The notes under the pieces were generated by a model. The model was given only the letters and a program-made list of their open reading frames with translations, was not told the DNA's origin and did not search any database. This document shows positions 10,449 through 16,886 of a DNA stretch of 40,151 nucleotides, in pieces. The translations under genes and the position numbers were made by a program. The DNA is taken from assembly GCA_021740245.1 (NCBI GenBank), contig JAIPAE010000010.1, forward strand, positions 1 through 40,151, in the 5' to 3' direction. The DNA comes from Bacteroidales bacterium (GTDB lineage Bacteria > Bacteroidota > Bacteroidia > Bacteroidales > PWNQ01). The first letter of the stretch is position 1. Every line of letters begins with the position of its first letter.

Positions 10449-10880
10449 TTATAAAAAAACCCAGGCTTGCCTGGACCTGCCTCGTAATAAATGATCCAAA
10501 CCAATCAACAATCCAAGCGCTGATGCTACAATTATAAAAAGATTATTGCCAAATAATGAGGAAAGTAGAACCATTATACTTTCAGATACAATTTTGAGTT
10601 GTTTAATGGCAAATGCGGCACCCTGTGTATCAAAAATGTTTTGGAACGACTCCATCAAAGGAATATCAAAAAATACAACGCTCAGCATAAAAGCGCTGAG
10701 GAGTATAAGTGCAGAAACCCAGTAAACAGGTTGTATAGCAGGGCTTTTCCCTGTATCAGCAACTTCTTGCATTTGAATTTTTCCCATGACTTTATGAGTG
10801 AAGTCATGAGAAGGTTGCTGCAACTTGTGATCTTTCATTAATTCTTTAAATGGATCATGTTGTGTTGAGGTCGTATTCAT
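10449..10880 (-). CDS. Small membrane protein, candidate anti-sigma factor
   Basis: 143 aa. The first 50 residues are polar and predicted cytosolic (FKELMKDH, HDFTHKVMGKIQ); membrane segments follow at about 53-72 and 98-128. The start overlaps the ECF sigma gene by 4 bp (ATGA-type coupling), and it is the only gene co-transcribed with it. A cytosolic N-terminus plus membrane anchor next to an ECF sigma factor is the usual plan of an anti-sigma factor; no canonical zinc-binding HxxxCxxC motif is present, so the assignment rests on context. The last five sense codons and the stop are also the stem and T tract of the operon terminator. Confidence 0.75.
   Translation of the reverse strand: MNTTSTQHDPFKELMKDHKLQQPSHDFTHKVMGKIQMQEVADTGKSPAIQPVYWVSALILLSAFMLSVVFFDIPLMESFQNIFDTQGAAFAIKQLKIVSESIMVLLSSLFGNNLFIIVASALGLLIGLDHLLRGRSRQAWVFL
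10452..10474 (-). terminator. Terminator embedded in the end of the membrane protein gene
   Basis: Minus strand CCAGG-caag-CCTGG (10474-10461) followed by GTTTTTTT. The stem and T tract encode the last residues (QAWVFL) and reach the stop codon, so termination and coding share the same bases. Confidence 0.75.
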
Positions 10881-11455
10881 AGTTCTTTGCTGATTAGATT
10901 TTCTTTCATTAATACATACATTAATCTTTGCATTTTCGACCGTGTCCGGTGCAAAGTTACTTTAACATTCGACTCACTCATTCCGGTGATCTTGCTGATC
11001 TCTTTTACACTAAAGTCTTCTTTATAATACAAAGTTATGATGATATATCCGTTTTCCGGTAATTTTTGCAATACTTCTTCCAGTAATAGTTTTTGTTTGT
11101 CGCTACTTAATTCATATAATGATTCCGTTGCTTTATCTTTGGTATAATTTTCAATAATGTCATTTTCCAACCCCTGAATTACATGCTTTCTCTTTCTTGT
11201 TTTTGTTATAGCCTCATTATAAGCAATGCGATATATCCAGGTTGAAAATTTTGATTTTCGTTTGAATGTGCCCAATGACTTGTAAACCTTTAAGAAAACT
11301 TCTTGCGATAAATCTTCAGCATCTTCTTCATTGCCCAAAATCTTAACAATGATTGTAAAGACCATATTTCTGTATTTATCCACCAAATACGAATAAGCCC
11401 GCGTGTTACCGGCCAATACTTTTTCTACATATTCCAGGTCCTTATTCATTGCCAT
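10877..11455 (-). CDS. ECF-family RNA polymerase sigma factor
   Basis: 192 aa. Sigma region 2 at about 21-90 (YRNMVFTIIVKIL, DAEDLSQEVFLKVY, FSTWIYRIAYNEA) and region 4 at about 125-178 with the helix-turn-helix FSVKEISKITGMSESNVKVTLHR; regions 1 and 3 are absent, as in extracytoplasmic-function sigma factors. It directs RNA polymerase to stress or envelope promoters, held in check by the coupled membrane protein encoded immediately downstream. A GTAACC-N15-CGTC promoter lies right in front of the gene and an identical arrangement drives the divergent gene, implying autoregulation. Transcription from that promoter would begin only a few bases before ATG 11455, so either a near-leaderless mRNA or initiation at the second Met (ATG 11449) is likely. 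Confidence 0.93.
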   Translation of the reverse strand: MAMNKDLEYVEKVLAGNTRAYSYLVDKYRNMVFTIIVKILGNEEDAEDLSQEVFLKVYKSLGTFKRKSKFSTWIYRIAYNEAITKTRKRKHVIQGLENDIIENYTKDKATESLYELSSDKQKLLLEEVLQKLPENGYIIITLYYKEDFSVKEISKITGMSESNVKVTLHRTRSKMQRLMYVLMKENLISKEL

Positions 11456-11465
11456 ATATATTTGT

Positions 11466-11490
11466 GACGATGAAATGGGTTGTTGGTTAC
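11466..11490 (-). promoter_or_regulatory. ECF-type promoter of the sigma factor operon
   Basis: Minus strand GTAACC (11490-11485), 15-nt spacer, CGTC (11469-11466). ECF sigma factors typically read an AAC-containing -35 and a CGT-containing -10 element. The same words and exact spacing occur on the plus strand 75 bp away. Confidence 0.75.
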
Positions 11491-11565
11491 TAATAAAATA
11501 AAAAAATCTGATTTATGAAATGTAATACTTATAAAAAAAGCGAATACGCTTTTAATAAAAAAAAT

Positions 11566-11590
11566 GTAACCTGGTTAAAATGCATGCGTC
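11566..11590 (+). promoter_or_regulatory. ECF-type promoter of the divergent membrane protein gene
   Basis: GTAACC (11566-11571), 15-nt spacer, CGTC (11587-11590), matching the opposing promoter of the sigma operon in both boxes and spacing. The upstream ATG at 11580 lies within the spacer, so it cannot be the start codon; the first downstream ATG is 11622, giving a leader of about 25 nt. Confidence 0.75.
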
Positions 11591-11621: not shown

Positions 11622-11987
11622 ATGGAATGGACCCCAATTCTTATAATGGCAGTTATCAGCGGAGCAATTGTTGGTATTGTATATCTGCAAATCAGGAAAA
11701 AAGAACGGTTGGCTTTACTGCAATATGATAAAGATGCCTCGGTTTTTGAAACAAGACATCGATGTGGTAAAAGTTCTATAAAATATGGTTTACTGCTCAC
11801 TGGTGTAGGGCTGGGTATTTTACTGGCCAATATATTTGTGAGTACGGGAGTTCTCAGCGAAGACGTAGCCTATTTTTCAATGATCTTTATTTTTGGTGGC
11901 ATTGCTTTATTGATTGATTTTTATCTTCAACGTAAAGAATACAAGCATAACCAAAAAGAAAAGCAGGAAGAGGACAATCAGGAATAA
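11622..11987 (+). CDS. Small inner-membrane protein (DUF6249-like), ECF regulon member
   Basis: 121 aa from ATG 11622. Membrane segments at about 4-23, 53-74 and 80-98, with a cytosolic loop of basic and charged residues between the first two and a very hydrophilic, Lys/Glu-rich C-terminal tail. Resembles small three-helix proteins of the DUF6249 type that sit next to ECF sigma genes in Bacteroidota (recollection, not searched). A longer reading from ATG 11580 would add 14 polar residues before the first helix, but that codon is inside the ECF promoter and is rejected. It is divergent from the sigma operon and likely one of its targets; its biochemical role is unknown. Confidence 0.75.
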   Translation: MEWTPILIMAVISGAIVGIVYLQIRKKERLALLQYDKDASVFETRHRCGKSSIKYGLLLTGVGLGILLANIFVSTGVLSEDVAYFSMIFIFGGIALLIDFYLQRKEYKHNQKEKQEEDNQE

Positions 11988-16302: not shown

Positions 16303-16469
16303 GCTTAACTAACAATTCAGATATTAAAAGTTTAACCAGAATCAATTAGTTTTTGAACTCGGTTTCATCTTTGTATATATGATACGAAAGCTGCCTAGCT
16401 TATAATTACATTGATAATCAATATTAAAAGAGGTTTTATTATAAATAATCCGGATTCTTTTAAAAAAAT

Positions 16470-16495
16470 GTAACAAAACAAATAATGAAGTCGTC
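16470..16495 (+). promoter_or_regulatory. Possible ECF-type promoter, weaker match
   Basis: GTAACA (16470-16475) and CGTC (16492-16495) with one base more between them than in the paired sites at 11466-11590. It lies 62 bp before the start of the small secreted protein gene. It may be a third target of the ECF sigma factor or a chance match. Confidence 0.35.
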
Positions 16496-16556: not shown

Positions 16557-16886
16557 ATGAACGCAAAATTATTCACACTCGCAGCAATTATCGGCTTACT
16601 GACATTCACTTCTGTTTACGCCGATGAAGACAAAAACCTGGTTAAACAAACCGTACGTCAGCAAATTGATTATCCCGAATTTGCCATAGAAGAAAATCTT
16701 GAAGGAACCGTATGGGTAGAATTTACAGTAAATGAAAGCGGTAAGATCAAAGTTGGGCAAATTAACTCTGCCTGCATTCCTCTGAAAAATTATGTACTGA
16801 ACAAGCTCGAAGGTATGGAAGCCTTCAAACTGGTGGATGCATCCAAAGAAAAGTATCAGATGTATTTCGATTTCCATCTGCTCTAA
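16557..16886 (+). CDS. Small secreted protein with TonB C-terminal-like domain
   Basis: 109 aa. Signal peptide MNAKLFTLAAIIGLLTFTSVYA followed by DEDKN. The mature part (about 23-109) has the TonB-C pattern: RQQIDYPEFAIEENLEG near the start, TVWVEFTVNESGKI in the middle, and a final strand QMYFDFHLL. Classical TonB has an N-terminal anchor and Pro-rich linker; this is a free periplasmic domain, so a role in TonB-type energy transduction is not implied. The gene is single, with its own terminator and a possible ECF-type promoter. Confidence 0.8.
   Translation: MNAKLFTLAAIIGLLTFTSVYADEDKNLVKQTVRQQIDYPEFAIEENLEGTVWVEFTVNESGKIKVGQINSACIPLKNYVLNKLEGMEAFKLVDASKEKYQMYFDFHLL

Follow-up and report, generated by a model that had tools for sequence, protein, structure and literature searches.

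What does an ECF sigma factor recognize, and what does it control, when the same promoter words stand in front of its own operon and, facing the other way, in front of a neighboring membrane protein gene? Many ECF sigma factors of Bacteroidota have unknown sequence specificity and purpose, and the locus described here lies in a 40,151-nucleotide stretch of Bacteroidales DNA that was analyzed as a whole (the window). Within the 167-bp intergenic region between the sigma and DUF6249 genes, we verified GTAACC-N15-CGTC on both strands, with the words, spacing and positions given in the initial annotation. The predicted promoter of the sigma/anti-sigma operon, GTAACC-AACAACCCATTTCAT-CGTC, occupies 11466–11490 on the minus strand, and the predicted DUF6249 promoter, TGTAACC-N15-CGTC (i.e., GTAACC-TGGTTAAAATGCATG-CGTC), occupies 11566–11590 on the plus strand; both appear in the footprint of the relatives described below. 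The two had been called identical, which is correct for both words and for the spacing and incorrect for the flanks, which read AGTAACC..TCGTCA on the minus strand and TGTAACC..GCGTCA on the plus strand. From base composition, ~0.03 copies of GTAACC-N15-CGTC would be expected in the whole window when both strands are counted. An inverted repeat between the promoters, AAAAGCG-AATA-CGCTTTT at 11536–11553, was also considered and rejected; it is without conservation in relatives.

The leftward gene (10877–11455, minus strand, with an alternative in-frame ATG at 11449) encodes a 192-aa protein in which Pfam finds Sigma70_r2 (residues 24–90, 67.3 bits) and r4_2 (residues 124–175, 46.3 bits), each above its cut-off. 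The presence of regions 2 and 4 and the absence of region 3 give it the layout of an ECF sigma factor, as it was first designated, and its NCBIfam sigma70-ECF score is 111 bits (cut-off 42.9). Its best NCBIfam equivalog resemblance is to SigW, at 116 bits against a cut-off of 209, which leaves it outside that family. Overlapping the sigma stop codon is a gene for a 143-aa membrane protein (10449–10880, minus strand), the putative anti-sigma factor. This protein contains no cysteine anywhere and so no HxxxCxxC, in line with the earlier remark that the membrane partner lacks a zinc-binding anti-sigma motif, and it matches no Pfam or NCBIfam family above cut-off. It carries the N-terminal motif PSxxFTxxVM, and its predicted structure consists of helices only, two short ones at the N-terminus and longer ones after them (mean pLDDT 78). 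The overlap with the sigma gene, in an arrangement that is conserved, makes it a candidate for co-transcription, while its role as the sigma inhibitor is putative; a consensus scan placed an intrinsic terminator-like hairpin over the 3’ end of the gene (10457–10478, minus strand).

The rightward gene (11622–11987, plus strand) encodes a 121-aa inner-membrane protein of the DUF6249 family (Pfam PF19762, 51.2 bits against a cut-off of 33). An alignment of 28 relatives starts with the methionine encoded at 11622 rather than at 11580, where a longer frame opens, which supports the start proposed before. This small membrane protein is all-helical, shows conserved KERL and glycine motifs but no enzymatic signature, and is predicted to contain three long helices (mean pLDDT 88). 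Fold searches with the DUF6249 and anti-sigma models gave no structural match, and a literature search for DUF6249 gave no relevant paper.

To place the locus among its relatives, we gathered loci by protein similarity, either to the sigma factor (80 loci) or to DUF6249 (60 genomes of the same order), and never by the promoter. In the majority of loci, which range from Bacteroidales to Flavobacteriia, profile searches located the sigma gene with the small membrane protein gene behind it and a divergent DUF6249 gene. The small membrane protein gave 88 profile matches in ~100 loci and is encoded downstream of the sigma gene in most relatives. At the level of predicted gene content, the module is not a one-locus curiosity and recurs across the Bacteroidota phylum. 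Cultured species that carry it include Parabacteroides goldsteinii and Phocaeicola vulgatus.

The wider set comprised 81 distinct relative loci having divergent sigma and DUF6249 genes. GTAAC-N16/17-NGTC lies upstream of the sigma gene in 81/81 of these (exact CGTC in 72) and upstream of DUF6249 in 75/81 (exact CGTC in 70). A first set of 49 intergenic regions contained GTAAC-N16/17-CGTC 44 times toward DUF6249, 40 times toward sigma and 40 times in both directions, with a shuffle rate of 0.0002 per promoter. The spacer after GTAAC is mostly 16 nt and is 17 nt in Flavobacteriia and a few others, and its length is equal on both promoters in 70 of 75 loci (53 at 16/16 and 17 at 17/17). A −10 that departs from CGTC has often changed alike on the two sides (AGTC/AGTC three times, TGTC/TGTC once). 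The matching of spacers and −10 variants is partly a matter of shared ancestry, yet recognition of both sites by a single protein would also predict it. The footprint makes autoregulation, with DUF6249 as a predicted direct target starting at 11622, well supported, and the sigma factor very probably activates its own operon together with its DUF6249 partner.

The initial annotation had also suggested a genome-wide search for the motif. In the window’s own genome, of which 1.98 Mb was examined (66.6% complete), we found no enrichment: there are three GTAACC-N14/17-CGTC sites, two of which are the module promoters, against 16 for a reversed control pattern. Because a sigma factor with very few targets yields no genome-wide excess, the enrichment test is uninformative, and for such a small regulon it is conservation across genomes that is informative. 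The third site (G000:C13:13338-13363; L131, L397), TGTAACCTTTTGGTTACTTTTGCGTC, lies before a TetR-TolC operon and was not counted as a target; it is more likely a TetR operator because it has the perfect palindrome GTAACC-TTTT-GGTTAC within it.

The footprint also has a bearing on translation. In the window, the ATG of the sigma gene is 10 nt downstream of CGTC and that of DUF6249 is 31 nt downstream. Among the relatives, the GTC-to-ATG distance has a median of 11 nt on the sigma side (quartiles 10–11, n = 85) and 44 nt on the DUF6249 side. Since the sigma ATG lies ~11 nt past the promoter GTC, the sigma mRNA would be nearly leaderless, with a leader of about 3–6 nt if transcription begins at the usual 6–7 nt past the −10. 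With its fixed 11 nt between −10 and ATG, the sigma gene would be a natural candidate for testing how nearly leaderless mRNAs are translated in bacteria without Shine-Dalgarno leaders.

The closeness of the two divergent genes admits another reading of DUF6249, in which it is a second sensor or co-regulator acting with the anti-sigma factor and not an output, the paired promoters serving to fix the proportions of sigma, anti-sigma and DUF6249. DUF6249 is found within 700 bp of the sigma gene in 81 loci, a link far stricter than that for any other target, and the concerted change of the sigma-side and DUF6249-side spacers as well as the small helical membrane protein with its KERL and glycine motifs and no enzymatic signature are consistent with such a role. 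However, three loci (L041, L044 and L077) have sigma and anti-sigma genes with no DUF6249 detected nearby, which suggests that it is not always needed, although contig ends may explain some of them. We hold the co-regulator role of DUF6249 to be a plausible but tentative alternative.

The reading that we favor, and consider quite likely as a whole, is that of an autoregulated envelope-stress switch with inner-membrane protection as its probable output. In the resting state, the membrane protein encoded at 10449–10880 would use its short N-terminal cytoplasmic helices to keep the sigma factor encoded at 10877–11455 at the inner membrane; the families, the N-terminal motif and the structure model lead us to infer that it is the anti-sigma factor holding sigma in this way. 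A membrane disturbance would then release sigma. Because the anti-sigma factor is short and consists mostly of membrane helices, such a disturbance seems a more natural signal than a periplasmic ligand, and the switch is probably activated under membrane stress. Once freed, sigma together with RNA polymerase would recognize TGTAACC-N15-CGTC in both directions, as the footprinting supports. Leftward transcription would yield the nearly leaderless sigma/anti-sigma mRNA, providing positive feedback as well as fresh anti-sigma factor for switching off, and rightward transcription would yield the three-helix DUF6249, which may act at the membrane or feed back on the switch. In relatives, the same promoter likely also drives PspC-LiaF and DUF2807 genes, so that the output would probably be inner-membrane protection of the phage-shock/Lia type.

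This last step draws on promoters found away from the module. We scanned 60 genomes of the same order for TGTAACC-N15/16-CGTC and read out 20 places, which included PspC-LiaF operons in six genomes, DUF2807 genes in two, signal peptidase I, SppA and unexplained places; the target genes were assigned with Pfam (PspC, LiaF-TM and DUF2807). Across 247 genomes of the order, TGTAAC-N16/17-CGTC lies upstream of 35/52 short PspC-LiaF genes, at a shuffle rate of 0.0001. The long PadR-linked PspC genes have no such promoter. Three genomes that have the module sigma, and in which the second sigma family described below was not found, also have such targets. The target in G059 is PspC; in G005, the PspC and sigma promoters share a 15-nt spacer and there is a DUF2807 target too; and in G017, the sigma, DUF6249, DUF2807 and TM2 promoters all have a 17-nt spacer. 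Targets beyond DUF6249 probably exist, judging from these predicted promoters, and the original proposal of autoregulation plus one local target, of which autoregulation and the divergent target are strongly supported by the footprint, was probably too narrow in counting a single one. The PspC-LiaF and DUF2807 promoters suggest that the module is an inner-membrane stress switch.

Two further attempts to assign the PspC promoter to a sigma factor were unsuccessful. The promoter is independent of the presence of DUF6249 (24/35 with the module, 11/17 without), and this test by co-occurrence gave no association; we keep the link as likely. The base after TGTAAC was not a significant predictor of the sigma factor serving PspC (Fisher p 0.72). 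Because the PspC promoter does not track DUF6249, a second sigma factor may serve PspC in some genomes. A PspC gene was not found in the window’s genome, of which 67% was examined and 33% is missing, and a search for PspC-LiaF operons of this type found none in Flavobacteriia, which nevertheless retain the module.

It may also be asked whether the main signal is outer-envelope or oxidative stress, as reported for EcfO and P. gingivalis RpoE, in which case the inner-membrane reading would be wrong. The same promoter stands upstream of CarboxypepD_reg-like outer-membrane genes in Phocaeicola, Parabacteroides and Dysgonomonas (L201, L184, L204, G061:C1:2096204). In addition, the relevant passages on characterized Bacteroidota ECF systems describe responses to outer-envelope or oxidative stresses (PMC13114119, PMC9308784), and EcfO-Reo and Das/Dma (ECF21) of Bacteroides and Phocaeicola are presented there and in a further paper as ECF/anti-sigma pairs responding to envelope stress (PMC13114119, PMC9308784, PMC13088901). 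The Reo and Dma anti-sigma factors, according to the same passages, span both membranes and end in a C-terminal barrel (PMC9308784, PMC13088901, PMC13114119). In contrast, the module anti-sigma factor has 143 aa, helices only and no barrel, which sets it apart from the ECF21 type, and among the additional targets in Bacteroidales relatives, the PspC-LiaF operon is the commonest. We therefore consider an outer-envelope or oxidative signal unlikely. In the portion of the literature that describes it, the EcfO regulon includes nigD genes, and DUF6249 is not named there.

One of the closest known systems lies outside the phylum. Autoregulation of an ECF sigma factor with its anti-sigma factor is textbook knowledge, and SigW/RsiW of B. 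subtilis is an autoregulated pair whose targets include small membrane proteins and Psp/SppA-like proteins. The module resembles it in that SigW is the top-scoring NCBIfam equivalog, the −35 is of the AAC type and the −10 contains CG; it differs in that its sigma factor scores below the SigW cut-off and its partner is cysteine-free, with no zinc anti-sigma motif. We know of no counterpart of DUF6249 in the SigW/RsiW system.

Within Bacteroidota, CirY-CirZ of Phocaeicola vulgatus is described, in the passage devoted to it, as a small ECF/anti-sigma pair that is strongly upregulated in colitis and followed by a Spy chaperone gene (PMC13114119). In P. vulgatus ATCC 8482, in contrast, the module locus (L048) lacks an adjacent Spy gene and has a divergent DUF6249-like gene. 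SigW-1 of B. thetaiotaomicron (BT1817-BT1816) and RpoE of P. gingivalis (PG1660-PG1659), both ECF251, likewise combine an ECF sigma factor with a small membrane partner, and it is possible that SigW-1 and PG1660 are orthologous to the module sigma. The motif given for SigW-1, in the part of the report that presents it, has a TGTT −10, not CGTC, and was non-significant (PMC12596196). The likely targets in relatives, PspC-LiaF-TM operons and DUF2807 (Toastrack) genes, recall the phage-shock/Lia systems with their PspC, LiaI-LiaF-TM and Toastrack components. The pertinent sections of a PSP survey list LiaRS and PadR-HAAS as regulators of PspC/Toastrack genes, together with a sigma factor linked in the operon in the case of one operon type, and these sections mention neither DUF6249 nor an unlinked ECF sigma factor as a Bacteroidota regulator (PMC11237479).

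The module sigma is not the only one with such a promoter. A second, unlinked ECF family of ~160 aa (L289/L290 in G001:C10 and 26 relatives), whose gene is followed by that of an unrelated 350–440 aa protein starting M.INRNNYE, occurs in 41/60 genomes of the same order. It has TGTAAC-N16/17-NGTC upstream of its own gene in 21/27 loci, and members with TGTAAC-N16/17-CGTC in this position contradict the earlier statement that a single locus defines the recognition sequence. We considered whether this look-alike, and not the adjacent sigma factor, mainly reads one or both module promoters. The base following TGTAAC is C in 145/156 module promoters versus T or A in 20/21 second-family promoters (Fisher p ~1e-17, relatedness ignored), and the core TGTAAC..CGTC is common to both families, with this base apparently discriminating their own predicted promoters. 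Moreover, the module promoters are also present in G005, G017, G021, G025, G047 and G059, none of which yielded the look-alike, and it was not found in the examined part of the window’s own genome. Reading of the module promoters mainly by the look-alike is therefore very improbable. A last rival would see coincidence in the two motifs and have the genes transcribed from the housekeeping promoter TAnnTTTG; one similar box, TATATTTG, is located at the sigma start codon, on the plus strand. This rival is hardly conceivable, as one site per direction arose in none of 20,000 dinucleotide-shuffled versions of the 167-bp intergenic region and the motifs are conserved in 75–81 of 81 loci.

With adjacent sigma as the preferred reader of both sites, the module supplies a testable promoter code, TGTAACC-N15/16-CGTC versus the TGTAAC[T/A] of the sister family. 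It would also place DUF6249 in a functional context for the first time and put forward a candidate for the regulator of the PspC-LiaF envelope-stress genes of Bacteroidota. We suggest, with reserve, that it may represent an undescribed, phylum-wide inner-membrane stress response of Bacteroidota, combining an ECF sigma factor, a minimal cysteine-free anti-sigma factor and a near-obligate DUF6249 with paired promoters that co-evolve; a nearly leaderless sigma mRNA; control of PspC-LiaF/Toastrack genes in Bacteroidales that replaces PspF, LiaRS or PadR; and a single base after TGTAAC that separates the regulon from that of the sister sigma. We claim novelty for this combination and not for the idea, because the ECF Hub may already list the group with a predicted motif.

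Both promoter classes are present in the window’s own genome, TGTAACC at the module and TGTAACA upstream of small secreted proteins and an SppA protease. In the window, TGTAACAAAACAAATAATGAAGTCGTCACAATAACAAACAAACAAG at 16469–16495 (plus strand) is a predicted promoter of the second class (TGTAACA..CGTC) ahead of the ORF at 16557–16886, which encodes a secreted protein of 109 aa similar to a TonB C-terminal domain. In G000:C18, paralogous small secreted proteins are preceded by two near-identical leaders. At G000:C99:20671-20696 (L402), TGTAACAAATTACATAAGCGAACGTC is located upstream of an SppA-like signal peptide peptidase, and in the relative G036 an SppA gene has TGTAACC..CGTC instead (L139).
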